Below the pieces are notes generated by a model, which saw nothing but the letters and a program-made list of their open reading frames with translations, did no database searches and was not told where the DNA came from. Positions 29,167 through 36,163 of a stretch of DNA of 64,000 nt are shown here, one piece after another. The translations under genes were made by a program, and so were the position numbers. The stretch comes from a virus. The first letter of the stretch is position 1. Each line of letters starts with the position of its first letter. The stretch covers positions 124,001-188,000 of IMG/VR virus record IMGVR_UViG_3300046660_000219; one strand, written 5' to 3'.

Positions 29167-29661
29167 CTACTCCAACCAGACGACCGCCATGGTCTCTAGC
29201 TGGTCGTAACGGGTGTACGGTTCAAGCAACGTCGGATCGAGCACTTGCCCGCGTTCGACGTAGACAAAATGGCTCCCGCTCTGACTGCGTTTACGCAGGC
29301 TAGGAACGAGGTGAATGGCGTTGCGGTGGGTGACACGATCGCGCGTCATCGCGCCCATGTATTGCGGCGCTAGCTTTTCTGGGTGGTGGTAGCGCGGATT
29401 ATGACCAAGACGACGCAACAACGTGATCAGTTCTAGAAAGGTAAGCCCATCTTCGTAATACTGAAACGCCATCCCGGCGGCGTACACGTCGTCGTAATCA
29501 TCACCGGTTAGCATCGTCACGCAGCACGCCCAGCAATCAGCCGCCTCGGCTTGAAACTGTAGCGGTGGCAAGTTCAGGTAGCGATCGAAGCTATCGCCCA
29601 TGACGGCGTGGATCGCAGTTACCGGTTCAGGCCACTTGAAATTAGACAGCATGGCGTTCAT
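29167..29661 (-). CDS. Papain-like/C39-like cysteine peptidase-fold protein
   Basis: 164 residues. DCWACCVTMLTG (42-53) with an upstream Gln, GSHFVYV with His131 and VLDP with Asp142 give the Cys-His-Asp order of C39/papain-like peptidases ('Q...C..A...ML', 'HFV', 'V.DP'). It could cleave a peptide bond next to a Gly-Gly, which is the usual C39 site; that is notable because a Gly-Gly-ending ubiquitin-like protein is encoded 1.1 kb away. Not proven to be active. Confidence 0.6.
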   Translation of the reverse strand: MNAMLSNFKWPEPVTAIHAVMGDSFDRYLNLPPLQFQAEAADCWACCVTMLTGDDYDDVYAAGMAFQYYEDGLTFLELITLLRRLGHNPRYHHPEKLAPQYMGAMTRDRVTHRNAIHLVPSLRKRSQSGSHFVYVERGQVLDPTLLEPYTRYDQLETMAVVWLE

Positions 29662-29669
29662 GTACCGAC

Positions 29670-29867
29670 CTACAGTTTTGGTTGTTGTCCGAAAGGGTCA
29701 CGCCAAATGTACGGGTCACTACTGTCTAGCCGGATGGCGGCGATAACAGCAACGGCGGTGTCCACGCACTCGTCACAAATCAGCGCATTGACGGGCGCAG
29801 CCAGCAAGGTCTTAACCTCGTAGTCCGCCTTGCCACAGAAAGAACAGTAGTTTACTTGCCTGTTCAT
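29670..29867 (-). CDS. Stand-alone ClpX-type C4 zinc-binding domain
   Basis: 65 residues. CSFCGKADYEVKTLLAAP followed by ICDECVD (Cys8, Cys11, Cys31, Cys34) is the N-terminal zinc domain of ClpX almost residue for residue, which dimerises and docks adaptors and substrates. The AAA+ motor is absent; the last 25 residues are unrelated. It may bind ClpX adaptors or substrates, or ClpX itself, and so redirect or block host ClpXP. Confidence 0.75.
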   Translation of the reverse strand: MNRQVNYCSFCGKADYEVKTLLAAPVNALICDECVDTAVAVIAAIRLDSSDPYIWRDPFGQQPKL

Positions 29868-30803: not shown

Positions 30804-31334
30804 TTAGCCGCCGCGCGCTTGCGTAACGGTAGTGATGGTCTTGTTCTCGTTGATCACAGCCGTCTGCGTCAGCTTGGTGTTGTTGCTGTCACGCAGCATC
30901 AGGCCGGTCGGCGCGCCGGCCTTCTTGAGGTGATCGCCGAGCGTCTTGCCAGTGGACAGCGTGGACGATCCAGCGAACGAACCCGAGAAGGTCACGGTCA
31001 CGTCTTCCGTGGTAGCGACAGCCGGAACAGCGGCCGGAGCTTCTTCCGTACCGTTTTCCGGCGGTTGGGCTTCACCTTCCGCGACAGCTTCCGTTTCCGC
31101 CGTCTGTTCCGTGACGGGTTCCTCGGCGGCGACCGTTGCGGTTTCAGCGGCCGGAGCTTCTTCCGTGGTGGCTTCTTCCGACGCGGCGGCCACTTCTTCG
31201 GCGACCGGCTCTTCGGCGACGGGTGCGGCCGATTCTTGAGCCGACGTTTCGGCGCTCGTTTCGTTGGTGGCGGCGTTGGTCTCAGCGGTGTTTTCCGCCG
31301 CGCCGTTTTCCGGCGTTTCGTTTTGATCGGTCAT
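30804..31334 (-). CDS. Ubiquitin-like beta-grasp protein with C-terminal Arg-Gly-Gly
   Basis: 176 residues. Residues 1-110 are a disordered Ala/Glu/Thr/Pro tail. Residues 111-176 are a compact domain: strand (VTVTFSGSF), strand, helix (TLGDHLKKAG), then strands (GLMLRDS, TKLTQ, KTITTVTQ), the order of a ubiquitin-like beta-grasp. It ends exactly at QARGG, like ubiquitin's LRGG. The adjacent upstream gene is an E1-like enzyme, the usual partner that adenylates such a Gly-Gly end. Expected role: a protein tag, or a sulfur-carrier; the E2-like genes in the operon favour tagging. Last gene of the operon, 55 bases from the E1 gene. Confidence 0.8.
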   Translation of the reverse strand: MTDQNETPENGAAENTAETNAATNETSAETSAQESAAPVAEEPVAEEVAAASEEATTEEAPAAETATVAAEEPVTEQTAETEAVAEGEAQPPENGTEEAPAAVPAVATTEDVTVTFSGSFAGSSTLSTGKTLGDHLKKAGAPTGLMLRDSNNTKLTQTAVINENKTITTVTQARGG

Positions 31335-31389
31335 GTGTAGTCCCTAGCTAGGTTGTTGTGTTGGTACGCTTACTATTAACGCAGCCGTC

Positions 31390-32109
31390 CTAAGCTGCGC
31401 GCAACACTGACGAAGGATATCGCTTCTTCAGTATCGTCCAGGCGGAGAGGTCAGCAATGACCTCGTTCGCTTGAAGCTTGTTGTTCAGGGCGTCCATGGC
31501 CAGACAAATAGTAGTCTGGCTGGCGATCTGCGCCGTAGCCCCGATCGAAATGGTATTACCGCACGTGCCGATGTCGGCGGACGCTTCGGCGTCGTCGTAC
31601 AGCATTTCATAGTACGCGGCTTGTTCGCTCAAGTCAAACGGCCGGTAGGCGAAGCTCATAGCCGTGCGCCCGCTGGTCCTGGCGTCGTAGCCGACGCGGG
31701 TGTCGAACACCCATTCGACCTTGGGGTTAAGCTGACAGCCCTCTTGCGCGATCTGCTTACGGACCGTCATCGTGTCCACGCACATGAACACGAGATTGGC
31801 ATAGACGCGCCCACCAAGATACCGTTTCTTGTGGCCAGCGATCTCGGTACCTGTGGCCTCATAAACGCGCTGGCGTAACGCATTCACCTTCAAGCGCTCA
31901 ATATCATCAGGGCCATAAGGGTACTGGTTAGACAGGTTATGCGGTTCGACCACGTCGTCATCCCACACCGTGATGTTCTCCAGGCCCAGCTTAGCGAGAC
32001 CCAGGACGATGCTCGACCCAACAGCGCCCGCACCGATCACGAGGATCGACTTGTCGCTGAACTTGTGCGGATCGAATGCACTCAGGTGGCGTATCGTTTC
32101 AAGAGCCAT
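31390..32109 (-). CDS. E1/ThiF-family ubiquitin-like activating enzyme
   Basis: 239 residues. ILVIGAGAVGSSIVLGLAKLG (22-42) is the nucleotide-binding loop; WDDDVVEPHNLSNQ (49-62) holds the ribose-binding Asp and the NLxNQ motif; VDTMTVRK (111-118) is the 'D-N-x-x-x-R' element; Cys183 in GTCGNT is the probable thioester Cys. Adenylates a C-terminal Gly of a ubiquitin-like protein, here almost surely the neighbour encoded downstream. ATG 32109 overlaps the HTH gene's stop (TAATG). A ThiF/MoeB-type sulfur-transfer role is the alternative. Confidence 0.9.
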   Translation of the reverse strand: MALETIRHLSAFDPHKFSDKSILVIGAGAVGSSIVLGLAKLGLENITVWDDDVVEPHNLSNQYPYGPDDIERLKVNALRQRVYEATGTEIAGHKKRYLGGRVYANLVFMCVDTMTVRKQIAQEGCQLNPKVEWVFDTRVGYDARTSGRTAMSFAYRPFDLSEQAAYYEMLYDDAEASADIGTCGNTISIGATAQIASQTTICLAMDALNNKLQANEVIADLSAWTILKKRYPSSVLRAA

Positions 32110-32402
32110 TAGCGGCGGCCTTTCTTTGCGGGGTTACCATTCTTGCGCGGTTCCTCTTTTGCGACGAACCGGCGAGCAAGATTGGCGATGTGGGGATGCG
32201 CCAGGGAATTATCTTCGAACTCCACGGCTAAGTCAAGCGACGCTAAATGCAGCAATTGCTGGACCTTAATCGGCAAGTCTTCGATCCGACTCAACTCGAT
32301 AGGATGATACGAGCGATCGGAAATGCCAAGTTTGTCCGCCATGGCTCGCTGGGTTAAACCCAGCTCACCACGCAGTTCGAAAAGTGTATTGAAGCGATAC
32401 AT
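32109..32402 (-). CDS. Xre-type helix-turn-helix protein
   Basis: 97 residues. LTQRAMADKLGISDRSYHPIE (15-35, Xre-type HTH) followed by a helical region and a basic C-terminus (KKGRR). Translationally coupled to the E1 gene. Probably regulates the operon; the palindrome at 36140-36155 is a candidate target. Confidence 0.7.
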   Translation of the reverse strand: MYRFNTLFELRGELGLTQRAMADKLGISDRSYHPIELSRIEDLPIKVQQLLHLASLDLAVEFEDNSLAHPHIANLARRFVAKEEPRKNGNPAKKGRR

Positions 32403-32439
32403 CGGAAATCTCCTTCGACGATGAAGCTACTGTTACTAA

Positions 32440-34242
32440 TCAATCCTCGTCATCTTCATCGTCGTCAATTTCTCCCTCGTCATCCTCCATATCGTCTTCT
32501 TCATCCGCATCGTCTTCTTCATCCTCTTCAGCGGCGAAGTCACCGTTCTCCCAGGTGCGCGGCGTGCCAGCGTCAGCCACAGCCTCGTCTTGGAAGTTAC
32601 GCAACAGGCTGTCAGGACCATCTTCACCGAAGGTTCCGATAAGATGCTGCCACACACTTATGTGTACCTTTTTCGGAGGTTCTTTGGAGTCCGGTAAGAG
32701 CGACCACTTTCCAATATGATCCGTGTCGAATGTACGGTAGTACTCCATGATCGCCAAGATCAGGTTATAGTAGTCATTGGTGCGGATCGCTGACTCGAAC
32801 AATCGATCGAATGAACCAACGCAACTACCGTGTGGATTACGATAGTCCTTGTTCGGCGACGCGATGTTACGAACGCGTACCGAACCTTCCGTACTGATTT
32901 GGATCTCGAAACGTCCGCAATAGCGCTCCGTCCTATCACGCATCGAAATGCCCAGCATGTTCTTGGTGACGACGATCATGCGAGACGGAGTGAGAGTAAG
33001 TGTGTCGATTTCACCCATACCTTTAAGACGCTCGATAGATTCGCGCATGGCTCTTACGGTGTCGTCAGCCATGAGATTATAAGCACGTTCTGCGCCCTGG
33101 AATTTAGAGACCGCCTCTAGCATTTTCTTACGCAGCTTCTCCAATTCGTTCTGCGATTCCGCGTAGGTTGTTACGACGGATTTCGCGACGACTGCACCCC
33201 ACCTAGCCAGAGACTCTTCCGACACGCCATCATTGGCTTCTAGCCGCTTCTCCAGCGCTAGTAGGAATGCGGCGTGGTTGGGGAACGTCGTGAAAATGAC
33301 GGGCTTATTATTACCCTGCACGGGCACGACAATGTAACCATGACGGAATGGTTCGCCATTAGCCAAGCGCACAGGAGGTGCGGCGTCGCGCGTGACCACG
33401 GCATCGACGCTGGTGTTGCTTAATTTCGGTCGCGAAATAGTACGACGTGGTGTCACACCCTGCGCTTTAGGATCGGGTCGTTCATCTGACGGATCATAGA
33501 CCAACGGACGAAAACGCTCGCTAGCTTCTTGCCGCATGGCCGCGTGAAGATGCGGCGTCATGTGGTTGTCGAAGTGAATGCCTTCGAACACCACACCGTG
33601 AATGTACGTCGGATATGACGTGGAGCCGATGAAATCGGCATTGAACCGGTTTTCCCAGTTGAGAGTTTCACCACGATTAAAGGTATCACGCATCAATACC
33701 GGCATCATGTAGCCGAATACCGTCAGACGCGTGGAATAACTACTCTTACGATCGCTCGTGCCCCAGTAAGAATAGTTGGCAAAAACCGTACCACCAGGGA
33801 GACGATTACGCCACGACGCACGTAACGGGTCCGTGCCGCTGCGGACGTAGGACGAAGTATGCGGTGCTTGGTTGCGCGGCACGTCGTAGCCGTCATTGCC
33901 GTCAAGCGCCAGCACTTCCGTAAGCAAGGGTGACGGATTGATCACCGGGCATTCCGTCCGCTTAACCCAACCGTGAACCTGCGCCAGAGCCGGGATAAGG
34001 TAACGACGCTTCTCTGGCATTTCGTACGCATAGATCGGCAGCGTAGTCGTCGCTTGTAGTTGTTCCATCGTAAGCATGTTGGTAATGCGCGGATGGAACG
34101 GTGTGAAGGCCGGTGCGGGAAGGGTTTTGGCCTTCGTACCCTTCTTCGTGGTTGGATCCGTCTTAAGGTCAGCTTTAGAGAACTTGGCGCTAGCGCCTCC
34201 CACGGAAGGGACAGCTTTCAGGTAGGGGTTTGAACGAGCCAT
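32440..34242 (-). CDS. Large protein with predicted E2 (UBC)-like C-terminal domain, paralogue A
   Basis: 600 residues. Residues 1-380 match nothing I know but share blocks with the next gene (LANGEPFRHGYIVV at 293; EGIHFDN at 220). Residues about 390-510 run helix, strand (TLTLTPSRMIVVTKN), strand (RFEIQIS), strand (GSVRVRNIAS), then YRNPHGSCVGSF, then helix, the E2 order with His-Pro-Asn-like motif and Cys474 as candidate active site. The tail (570-600) is almost all Asp/Glu. ATG 34242 follows GGAAATAGTAAC. The E2 assignment is by topology and context. Confidence 0.6.
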   Translation of the reverse strand: MARSNPYLKAVPSVGGASAKFSKADLKTDPTTKKGTKAKTLPAPAFTPFHPRITNMLTMEQLQATTTLPIYAYEMPEKRRYLIPALAQVHGWVKRTECPVINPSPLLTEVLALDGNDGYDVPRNQAPHTSSYVRSGTDPLRASWRNRLPGGTVFANYSYWGTSDRKSSYSTRLTVFGYMMPVLMRDTFNRGETLNWENRFNADFIGSTSYPTYIHGVVFEGIHFDNHMTPHLHAAMRQEASERFRPLVYDPSDERPDPKAQGVTPRRTISRPKLSNTSVDAVVTRDAAPPVRLANGEPFRHGYIVVPVQGNNKPVIFTTFPNHAAFLLALEKRLEANDGVSEESLARWGAVVAKSVVTTYAESQNELEKLRKKMLEAVSKFQGAERAYNLMADDTVRAMRESIERLKGMGEIDTLTLTPSRMIVVTKNMLGISMRDRTERYCGRFEIQISTEGSVRVRNIASPNKDYRNPHGSCVGSFDRLFESAIRTNDYYNLILAIMEYYRTFDTDHIGKWSLLPDSKEPPKKVHISVWQHLIGTFGEDGPDSLLRNFQDEAVADAGTPRTWENGDFAAEEDEEDDADEEDDMEDDEGEIDDDEDDED

Positions 34243-34272
34243 GTTACTATTTCCTCTAGCTAGATTCTGCGA

Positions 34273-36042
34273 TCAATATTCGTCGTAGGTGTCAGCGCTG
34301 CGACCGCTTTCGTAATCGTCTCGCAGCTTACCTTCGAATGAATACAGCGCCGACGTAAAGGCCGTGGCGATCGAACTACCGCCGCGCTTCTTGCGTGCCT
34401 TACCTTTAAATACGGCGCTATCCGGCCAATCACCGACGAGAACCTGCCAATCCGACTCATAGGTCTTTTCAGGCCGCTCCTTGCTCTTAGGCAGCAGATC
34501 CCACTTGTGCGTGTGGCCCTTGTCAAAGAAACGGTAGTACTCCATGCTGGATATCACGAGCTGATGGTAGTCCGACATGGCCAGCGCGGATTCGAAGATG
34601 CGGGAGAACGAACCGACACAGCCGCCATGCGGATTACGGTAGTCCTTATGGGGTGCAGCGATGTTGCGGACACGCACGGCACTCGACAGATGGATTTGGA
34701 TTTCCATCTGTCCGCAGTACCGTTCGTCACCGCTGTTGTCGTTGTAGCCCAACATGTCTTTGGAGACGATGATAAGGGTATCACCGTCACATGTCACCGA
34801 CTCGATCTCACCAGCGTTGCGAATACGCTCCAGACTGACGTGTAACGTCTTGGCCGTGTCGTCGTTAGCTAGAGACAAGATGCGCTGTGCCGTCGCCCGT
34901 TCACCGGTCAACGTAAGCACCTCCGCCATCTTCTCTTCGATGCGTAGCGTGAGGTGATCGTAGGTGTCCTTAAGCGTGGATGTTACCCTTTGCGCCCAAC
35001 GATCGGCGAAGACGTCCAGTACGTCACCGTCCGCGAGTTGCGGCACGCTAACGATACGATGCGTTCGCTCGTGCGCCGTAACGAAGCTCTCAAGCGACGG
35101 CGCAGTCGTAACGACGATCCGGTTGTCGATGACAATGTATCCGTGGCGAAACGGTACACCATTGGCTAGCGCCGGTGTATCGGCACAGCGCAGGGCGTGC
35201 ACGTTGGAAAGTCGAGCGTGACGGTTGGTGCTATCCGTCAGCATTTCTTGGATAGAGCCTTGCGGCAGCTCAGAGACCGCCGCTTGCACGTCGCTCGCCA
35301 AGAACGACAGGTCCCGAAACACGGCGTTAGCCTGGGCGACTACATGCGGGTTGTCGAGGTTGAAATGAATACCCTCGATGAGAACACCGCAGAAATAGGT
35401 AAGACGTCGATGGCTCGACGTGACGTAGTCGTGATTGCGCGAGTTCTCTAGAGCGATCATACCGTCTCGGCTTTGGAAGCACAGCGCCGGAATGGCCAGC
35501 CCATAGCCAAACAAGTTAAGGTAGCGATCATCTGTGTCCGGCTGGGACCACGGAATGAAGTAGCGCGCTAGAGAGCGCGAGTTTACACGCTCACGACAGA
35601 AGTCTAGCAAACTATCGTTTTCCGGATAGTCAGCATCCAAGGCTAGATTAAAGGTACGCGGCACAAGGAAGCACGGGTTCTCCGGACTGCTGGTCAGGGC
35701 GATGTAATCGCGATCACGCGACACGTCGTCAGGCATGACACTCGTTTGCCACCCGTACGCCTTGGCCAGCAAGCGGAAGTTGGCACGCTCGCTCAGTTTC
35801 ACCTCATGCAGATACACTTTCTTGAAATCCGCGCTGTACGGGCTGCGCTGGTCAACGGGCCGCAAATCAATGTGCGACTTGACCGTACGCGGCGTGCGTA
35901 CCTTTTTAATAGGTGACGGACTGCACGCCGCCGTAGCAGGATAATCCGGCGCGTCTCTAGTGGGGGCGGAGGTCTCTGTCATGGCTTCATTTGCGTAAAT
36001 GCCAGCGAGCTTGAGCTTAGCGGAGGACTTCTGAGCAGCCAT
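34273..36042 (-). CDS. Large protein with predicted E2 (UBC)-like C-terminal domain, paralogue B
   Basis: 589 residues, tandem paralogue of the downstream gene. Best conserved is the C-terminal part: RYCGQMEIQI, VRVRNIAAPHKDYRNPHGGC (Cys475), then VGSFSRIFESA and MEYYRFFD, KWDLLPKSKE. A coiled coil lies at about 355-400. It lacks the acidic tail of paralogue A and ends in a basic then acidic segment. Both Cys sites are retained, so both may work, perhaps on different targets. First gene of the operon, 85 bases from the predicted promoter. Confidence 0.6.
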   Translation of the reverse strand: MAAQKSSAKLKLAGIYANEAMTETSAPTRDAPDYPATAACSPSPIKKVRTPRTVKSHIDLRPVDQRSPYSADFKKVYLHEVKLSERANFRLLAKAYGWQTSVMPDDVSRDRDYIALTSSPENPCFLVPRTFNLALDADYPENDSLLDFCRERVNSRSLARYFIPWSQPDTDDRYLNLFGYGLAIPALCFQSRDGMIALENSRNHDYVTSSHRRLTYFCGVLIEGIHFNLDNPHVVAQANAVFRDLSFLASDVQAAVSELPQGSIQEMLTDSTNRHARLSNVHALRCADTPALANGVPFRHGYIVIDNRIVVTTAPSLESFVTAHERTHRIVSVPQLADGDVLDVFADRWAQRVTSTLKDTYDHLTLRIEEKMAEVLTLTGERATAQRILSLANDDTAKTLHVSLERIRNAGEIESVTCDGDTLIIVSKDMLGYNDNSGDERYCGQMEIQIHLSSAVRVRNIAAPHKDYRNPHGGCVGSFSRIFESALAMSDYHQLVISSMEYYRFFDKGHTHKWDLLPKSKERPEKTYESDWQVLVGDWPDSAVFKGKARKKRGGSSIATAFTSALYSFEGKLRDDYESGRSADTYDEY

Positions 36043-36080: not shown

Positions 36081-36111
36081 AACGCCACGTCGTGTGGTTC
36101 GACGTGGCGTT
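36081..36111 (-). promoter_or_regulatory. Leader hairpin of the ubiquitin-like operon
   Basis: Perfect 12-bp stem (AACGCCACGTCG with its complement) with a 7-base loop, between the predicted transcription start and the first start codon. No U-tract. Candidate mRNA-stability or translation control element. Confidence 0.6.
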
Positions 36112-36127
36112 TCAAATGCGAAGACAC

Positions 36128-36155
36128 AGTATACAGGAATCGGCAAATTTGCCAA
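36128..36155 (-). promoter_or_regulatory. Promoter P5 of the ubiquitin-like operon with overlapping operator
   Basis: -35 TTGGCA (36150-36155), 16 bp, -10 TATACT (36128-36133). The 16-bp palindromic box (36140-36155, TTGGCAAATTTGCCGA on the minus strand) covers the -35 and spacer. Same box as at P1-P4, but there it lies upstream. Here a bound protein should block polymerase. Confidence 0.6.
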
Positions 36156-36163
36156 TACCCCCG

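Follow-up and report, generated by a model that had tools for sequence, protein, structure and literature searches.

A 64,000-nucleotide stretch of the IMG/VR virus record IMGVR_UViG_3300046660_000219 (bases 124001-188000 of the 205,908-base record; hereafter, the window) carries five genes that quite probably encode a phage ubiquitin-like conjugation cascade. The genes run on the minus strand from 36042 to 30804 and encode, in order of transcription, two paralogous E2-like proteins (E2-B and E2-A), a helix-turn-helix (HTH) protein, an E1/ThiF adenylating enzyme, and a ubiquitin-like protein (Ubl). The genes, their order, and their conservation are shown by the analysis, as are the Ubl fold, the E1 family, and a UBC-like model with an invariant cysteine on the E2 side. 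To our knowledge, Ubl conjugation in bacteria is known mainly from host defense and from plasmids. If the present reading is true, bacterial viruses alter proteins of the host, or their own, by attaching a ubiquitin-like tag in the course of an infection; the operon also provides a small natural E1-E2-Ubl set for studying how ubiquitin systems arose.

Gene Organization

The E2-B and E2-A genes are separated by 30 nt, E2-A and the HTH gene by 37 nt, and the E1 and Ubl genes by 55 nt; the end of the HTH gene overlaps the start of the E1 gene by one base. This spacing suggests that the five genes form one operon. The first-pass annotation of the window had described the same five open reading frames (ORFs): a beta-grasp-like protein ending in Arg-Gly-Gly, an E1/ThiF enzyme with a conserved Cys183, an Xre-type HTH protein, and two paralogues with one conserved cysteine each. 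An ORF check returned the same coordinates, lengths, and motifs, and the protein assignments held up in the searches, models, and alignments presented below, the HTH assignment through a match that stays under its family cut-off.

The gene set is not a chance assembly, because the Ubl/E2/E1 trio is conserved at the protein level in distant phages. It is also recovered independently: a Ubl profile built without the Ubls of Xanthomonas phage PhiXhv-12 and of the phage locus L007 finds both (E 1e-6 and 4e-11, respectively), and each of these Ubls adjoins both an E1 and an E2-like gene.

The Ubiquitin-like Protein

The Ubl precursor (30804..31334, minus strand) has 176 residues and consists of a 73-residue domain behind a 103-residue N-terminal tail rich in alanine and acidic residues (28 Ala and 27 Asp/Glu, with no Lys or Arg). 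Its C-terminus is TQARGG, so that Gly175-Gly176 stands directly at the stop codon. Low-complexity tails precede the Ubl in the phage loci L005 and L016 and in PhiXhv-12 as well.

No family in Pfam, PHROGs, NCBIfam, or PADLOC matches the protein over cut-off. An AlphaFold2 model of residues 104-176, built with nine phage relatives, has a predicted local distance difference test score (pLDDT) of 85.5 and shows a beta-beta-alpha-beta-beta order. The top Foldseek ranks for this model are a Caldiarchaeum ubiquitin (E 1.1e-3), NEDD8, and SUMO-2, with a probability of 1.00. In VIA-align, the model superimposes on 8tyz_B, the Ubl of a bacterial E1-E2-Ubl complex that is presumably Bil (Z 7.9, 2.2 Å, 67 residues), and on the molybdopterin-synthase subunit 6jc0_A (Z 7.7). 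The modeled domain is thus predicted to have the beta-grasp fold of ubiquitin-like modifiers. A C-terminal glycine or diglycine, the other hallmark of such modifiers, is found in the window (ARGG), L005 (GRGG), PhiXhv-12 (ASGG), and, as a single glycine (HG), L016.

The E1/ThiF Enzyme

The E1 gene (31390..32109, minus strand; 239 residues) matches Pfam ThiF at 8e-19. Its relatives in a PDB profile search are ThiF (9e-16) and UBA1 (5.7e-12), followed by weaker matches such as MccB, Cap2, and BubCD. The protein contains a GAGAVGS loop, a DDD motif, and an HNLSNQ motif in addition to Lys74, Asp112, and Cys183, and the glycine loop, its Asp, Lys74, Asp112, and Cys183 are invariant in all eight aligned phage E1s. 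Both the Rossmann ATP-binding domain and the conserved downstream cysteine of the E1/ThiF family are therefore present.

A tree of 24 sequences (17 phage E1s, six PRTRC ThiF proteins, and Salmonella ThiF; the E1s of Bil, Bub, and CBASS are not in it) separates the phage E1s from the PRTRC and Salmonella ThiF proteins with support of 98/97. The E1s of the window, L005, PhiXhv-12, and L016 are grouped with those of L006 and L007 (96/99), two loci that also carry a JAB gene, and in all six rows of this clade a Ubl and an E2-like gene stand beside the E1. The inner placements are unsure because of long end branches, that of L016 among them. GenBank labels the E1 of bajarodcaudo virus 1 'E1 enzyme family protein', and several other phage records annotate their E1 as 'thiamine biosynthesis protein'.

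The E2-like Paralogues

E2-A (32440..34242, minus strand; 600 residues) and E2-B (34273..36042, minus strand; 589 residues) are 35-36% identical. E2-A carries the motif YRNPHGSCVGSF with Cys474, and the C-terminal domain of E2-B carries YRNPHGGCVGSF with Cys475; this is the sole cysteine that is invariant across the E2-like family. The N-terminal ~340 residues share an EGIHF-type motif and are modeled with low confidence. In E2-A, this long N-terminal part is followed by a long helix (~342-391), a UBC-like region (~393-530), and an acidic C-terminal tail. The first-pass annotation had spoken of acidic-tailed E2-like proteins, a description that fits E2-A, with 28 Asp/Glu in its last 45 residues, but not E2-B, with 7. 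The E2 profile finds E2-B at 3.1e-84, a value to be read with E2-B being one of the profile's own building rows.

The AlphaFold2 model of E2-A has an overall pLDDT of 52.6 and is confident only at ~361-540, where a long helix, a second helix, six strands, a loop with Cys474, and two helices follow one another. Approximately 37 of the 50 VIA-align rows for this model are UBC E2s (counted by title), mostly over residues 393-530, the best of them at Z 6.4 (113 residues, 3.4 Å). The top two rows are Knl1 (Z 6.7 and 6.4), which we take to be RWD domains, a UBC-like fold. The model thus gives moderate support to a UBC fold in the C-terminal domain of E2-A. The first-pass annotation had named a fold check by HHpred in which the lack of a beta-grasp or UBC match would speak against it; AlphaFold2, Foldseek, and VIA-align were used in its place and yielded a beta-grasp and a UBC-like fold, the E2 match being moderate.

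A PDB profile search with both types of phage E2 (those from loci with and without a JAB gene) returned E2s in 13 of 15 rows, with the conserved Cys on the E2 catalytic position. In hhalign, the JAB-less and JAB-type E2s align at a probability of 89.5, Cys on Cys, compared with 0.1 for a control against E1s, and HMMER searches across the E2 groups reach the E2s of PhiXhv-12 (2.9e-4), L009 (3e-4), and L013 (4.4e-3), and that of L016 at only 0.091. The motif before the Cys is NPHG in the window E2s and HPH, HPC, or HPY...CxG in the JAB-type phage E2s; judged from sequence, the window E2s would have a catalytic Cys after the sheet and an HPN-type motif before it. One of the five JAB-type E2s scanned, that of L013, is matched by Pfam UQ_con (6.4e-4, below cut-off) over its HPC..CLG region. 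The E2-like protein of PhiXhv-12 (locus L002, 5316-7994) is 892 residues long, with cysteines densely clustered at each end; the clusters resemble zinc modules and might serve in target binding.

Several results weigh against reading these proteins as a conjugation cascade. Only ~180 of the 600 residues of E2-A are modeled with confidence, its VIA-align Z scores lie below 8, where the tool warns that a match may reflect merely a common arrangement, and a Foldseek search with the full model found nothing at E<=0.001 (best 0.4). The best E2 row of the PDB profile search, at 0.63, is not significant alone, and a row other than an E2 leads the list (0.47). Pfam, PHROGs, NCBIfam, and PADLOC give no E2 match for the window E2s, library scans give no E2 family match for those of L005 and PhiXhv-12, and a UQ_con search of eight phage records, including that of the window, found none; the best Pfam row for E2-A is a sub-threshold DNA_pol_phi match over the acidic tail. 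The Arg of NLxRQ is typical of E1/ThiF enzymes. Of the 17 phage E1s, 15 fit the motif pattern (L016 and L027 do not), and all 15 lack this Arg; Salmonella ThiF keeps it, as do the four PRTRC rows that fit (two of six do not). On the Ubl side, Foldseek returned no row at E<=0.001, a transcobalamin domain leads the VIA-align rows (Z 8.2), the Ubl of L016 ends in a single Gly, and two Ubl-like ORFs of L015 end in TS and KGA.

Distribution among Phages

The first-pass annotation had proposed that a phage uses such a conjugation set, and the spread is wider than it saw: the Ubl/E2/E1 trio is found in three phage lineages besides the window. JAB-less sets occur in the window, L005, L016, and PhiXhv-12, with varying gene order. 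The E1 of L005 is 57% identical to that of the window, and near-identical copies of the E1 and E2 of PhiXhv-12 are present in PhiXhv-15, PhiXhv-16, and Ep032, the Ubl being confirmed in PhiXhv-12 and Ep032. The isolated carriers are thus the Xanthomonas phages PhiXhv-12, PhiXhv-15, and PhiXhv-16 and the Erwinia phage Ep032, and their existence makes direct testing possible.

Ubl, E2-like, JAB, and E1 genes occur together at eight phage loci (L006, L007, L009, L010, L013, L015, L020, and L022; the match seen for L010 recurs on a second contig, L011), and L008 has a JAB and an E1, with no E2 or Ubl seen. These JAB-type loci resemble the window in their homologous E2, an E1 in the same phage branch (L015 is not in the tree), and a similar Ubl. 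They differ in carrying a JAB and in that seven of their eight Ubls do not end at Gly, whereas the window type ends at Gly and no JAB was found in it. The phage JAB profile (A18) had no match at E<=1 in the four window-type records (G000, G001, G007, and PhiXhv-12), which may be incomplete; in the L007 contig it matched at 9.8e-33. Ubls end at Gly in 4/4 JAB-less sets versus 1/8 JAB-type sets (Fisher 0.010, without correction for kinship).

A JAB also precedes the E1 in Kehishuvirus tikkala (Crassvirales), in Flavobacterium phage FpV4, and in contigs of similar order (L003, L012, L024, L030, L031, and L034). In the crAss-like/Flavobacterium set (the same six with L048 and L049), an E2 candidate stands before the JAB in six of eight cases (L003, L012, L030, L031, L048, and L049), chosen by place and by an HSH...CxG-type motif, by eye or pattern; no candidate was seen by motif in L024 and L034. 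Since these candidates are picked by motif and place and are missed by the E2 profiles, we do not count them as established. A possible Ubl precursor, with Gly-Gly at an internal position, is encoded in L012 and FpV4 and is missed by the Ubl profile. An annotated primase lies near the L003, L048, and L049 loci, and a uracil-DNA glycosylase lies near L003 and L048.

A tblastn search with E2-A gave no match in phage and plasmid collections, the PhiXhv-12 E2 found itself and three near-copies, and a scan of IMG/VR with E2-B alone found none. A genome scan with the E1 alignment gave four weak loci, whose best segments cover part of the query at 28-47% identity. In one of them, on an Anaerolineae metagenome-assembled genome contig (L038:2006-4305), weak Ubl and E2-like matches lie in a row with a JAB and an E1 match, possibly marking a prophage or a cellular relative. 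PRTRC-type sets (a GTKG-ended Ubl, a Prok-E2_D protein, and ThiF) occur on two viral-classed contigs (L014:2113-4887 and L032:4840-7729), and the PRTRC set of a Parabacteroides plasmid (L044:1066-3978) has no protein A (JAB) in its gene table, which may be incomplete.

Relation to Known Systems

Bacterial operons of E1, E2, JAB, and Ubl, as well as the lambda-type Ubl-JAB tail pair, were described by Iyer et al. 2006 (PMC1779556), in the available passages of which no phage E1-E2-Ubl set was found. The tail pair also appears in passages of PMC12908700, and those of PMC13373217 present the Bub and Bil operons as pathways of bacteria. At the word level, a survey of 224 jumbo phages (PMC7824862) contains no Ubl, E1-like, JAB, or ThiF, and 'ubiquitin' twice for other matters; a 2026 jumbo phage review (PMC13282480) contains no 'ubiquitin'. 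Among the matches listed, the titles and abstract beginnings held no description of a phage Ubl/E1/E2 set, in a literature without preprints and with few subscription papers. The first-pass annotation knew of no phage version with large, acidic-tailed E2-like proteins. Because bacterial operons are published and the phage set was not found in the literature covered, we regard the operon as a phage variant, new and distinct, of a type of system that is already known.

Bil, Bub, and type II CBASS (Cap2) share with the window the logic of a dedicated bacterial Ubl, E1, and E2; the window Ubl matches the fold of the 8tyz Ubl, and Cap2 and BubCD are among the weak matches of its E1 profile. The window set differs in being phage-borne, with E1 and E2 unfused and no deconjugase found, and its E2s match no PADLOC model. 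BilB is the JAB-type deconjugase of Bil, and Cap2 of type II CBASS is an E2-E1 fusion in one chain. Membership in Bil was rejected on the lack of a JAB-type deconjugase in all four window-type records (JAB profile, E<=1; the records may be incomplete), and membership in type II CBASS on the separate E1 and E2 ORFs, with the PADLOC E1-E2 models matching solely E1 residues 7-146. A different relation to these systems is that of a decoy, in which the phage Ubl and E2 mimic host components and jam or divert Bil, Bub, or CBASS cascades. CBASS conjugation enhances anti-phage defense, according to the passages available from PMC10097602, and the large N-terminal parts of the E2-like proteins have no assigned fold, both of which would suit a decoy. 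However, a complete trio that keeps its conserved catalytic-type residues would be needless for one, and the phage E1s branch apart from PRTRC ThiF, an argument that is weak here because the E1s of Bil, Bub, and CBASS are not in the tree. A decoy is therefore unlikely.

The E1 may alternatively adenylate the Ubl merely to form a thiocarboxylate, as for ThiS, MoaD, and Urm1, in the thiolation of tRNA, a cofactor, or nucleic acid, the E2-like proteins being other partners. The E1 is by profile nearest to ThiF and, as noted, 6jc0_A is among the structural matches of the Ubl. Zn-binding CxxC pairs in the E1 are a mark of ThiS/ThiF sulfur transfer; the window E1 has none and a single CxxC occurs in 1 of 17 phage E1s, compared with two in Salmonella ThiF, which speaks against ThiS/ThiF sulfur transfer. 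Rhodanese was found in none of four records at E<=1, versus 13 of 14 controls (no search was made for MoaE, ThiG, or cysteine desulfurases). The E1 is also linked to an E2-like protein in which a single Cys is invariant, a further argument against a sulfur carrier, which we regard as quite unlikely.

Very unlikely, in turn, is a role in virion assembly in the manner of lambda gpI/gpK, with a Ubl domain cut from a tail protein. The Ubl-JAB pair of lambda-type tails, as presented in the passages of PMC1779556 and PMC12908700, does place a Ubl in a phage, but it serves tail assembly and, according to the same passages, has no E1 or E2 in its set. The window Ubl is a separate protein with its own Gly-Gly end alongside E1 and E2 genes, and the nine neighboring ORFs scanned included no tail family, the matches over cut-off being solely a ClpX-type zinc finger and DUF1353.

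The PRTRC system of plasmids (PRTRC A-F and ThiF) likewise encodes a Ubl, an E1, and an E2-like protein in a single run of genes carried by a mobile element, and its E2 has a CxG motif. The identity of the window E2s with PRTRC-B (Prok-E2_D) was rejected, as they have no Pfam or NCBIfam match, compared with 8.6e-13 at the PRTRC locus L014. The JAB PRTRC-A and a GTKG-ended Ubl were likewise rejected, no JAB having been found and the Ubl ending in ARGG (PRTRC E, F, and ParB were not searched for), and the window E2s are more than twice as long. That a phage simply carries a PRTRC system is highly improbable: the PRTRC_ThiF profile matches the E1 at 1.4e-11 and the JAB-type phage E2s align with PRTRC-B at the CxG motif (at an hhalign probability of only 2.4), but the E1 scores 44.2 bits where the cut-off is 144.75 and lies across the tree split given above, which speaks against a PRTRC-clade ThiF, and hhalign of window-type E2s with PRTRC-B gives 0.2, so that homology is not detectable by this method.

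Proposed Mechanism

For the conjugation cascade, we infer the chemical steps, targets, and biological purpose as follows. The E1 would bind ATP and adenylate Gly176 at the C-terminus of the Ubl, which would then be held as a thioester on the E1, probably at Cys183, and handed to the conserved Cys of either E2-like protein (Cys474 in E2-A, Cys475 in E2-B). The Ubl should need no trimming because it ends at Gly-Gly. The E2s would attach it to a target protein that their long N-terminal parts may choose, in which case no separate E3 would be needed, and the two paralogues may serve two targets or two steps. With no JAB found and no trimming needed, the tag may be lasting. Most likely, the cascade would serve to modify proteins of the host or the phage in the course of infection.

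A broader view is offered tentatively and could well prove wrong. Tailed phages may possess a separate branch of Ubl conjugation of their own, which would take in large phages that infect Xanthomonas and Erwinia, environmental phages, and perhaps crAss-like ones. The sub-branch of the window would lack the JAB, through loss or from the outset, and would hence apply a one-way tag, and its giant E2s would recognize targets and thereby merge the E2 and E3 roles.

Regulation and Neighboring Genes

The Xre-type HTH protein (32109..32402, minus strand; 97 residues) matches Pfam HTH_19 at 2.6e-6, with 27.7 bits against a cut-off of 30.2. Approximately 40 nt upstream of E2-B lies a perfect inverted repeat (36081..36111; 12-bp arms, 7 nt spacer), a candidate operator or hairpin, whose 11-bp-arm pattern with up to three mismatches occurs once in the window and in none of 100 shuffles. 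An imperfect 24-bp palindrome with the center AAATTT (36136..36159), a candidate HTH operator, has one match in the window and was reached by 1 of 100 shuffles. It overlaps a promoter-like site, TTGGCA-16-TATACT (36155-36128, minus strand); such sites are at chance level in the region (4 versus a mean of 3.6). Control of the operon, we infer, probably lies with the HTH protein acting at the palindromes upstream of E2-B.

Capsid and terminase profiles gave little: PF07068 matched none of four records and also none of 14 controls, and PF03237 gave one weak match in the four records, in that of L016. The phage nature of the window's record thus rests on its IMG/VR class and on PHROGs matches, which among ten scanned proteins of the record include topoisomerase II, a sigma factor, SSB, RNR, and MazG.

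A small C39-like (papain-type) protein is encoded 1.1 kb downstream of the Ubl gene (29167-29661, minus strand) and likewise close to the operon in L005 (L005:3900-4433). The two proteins are 37% identical with conserved Gln, Cys, His, and Asp, and the Pfam match of 0.042 is below cut-off. A profile built from them found two of eight records, both its sources, each with a second, weaker copy elsewhere, and none in the other six; nothing in the phage collection matched. C39 peptidases cleave behind a Gly-Gly pair, and the protein is a weak candidate for a replacement deconjugase. Between this gene and the Ubl gene, 0.9 kb downstream of the latter, lies a gene for a standalone 65-residue ClpX-type C4 zinc finger (29670-29867, minus strand; Pfam 2.5e-13), a protein that, speculatively, might act on host ClpXP.

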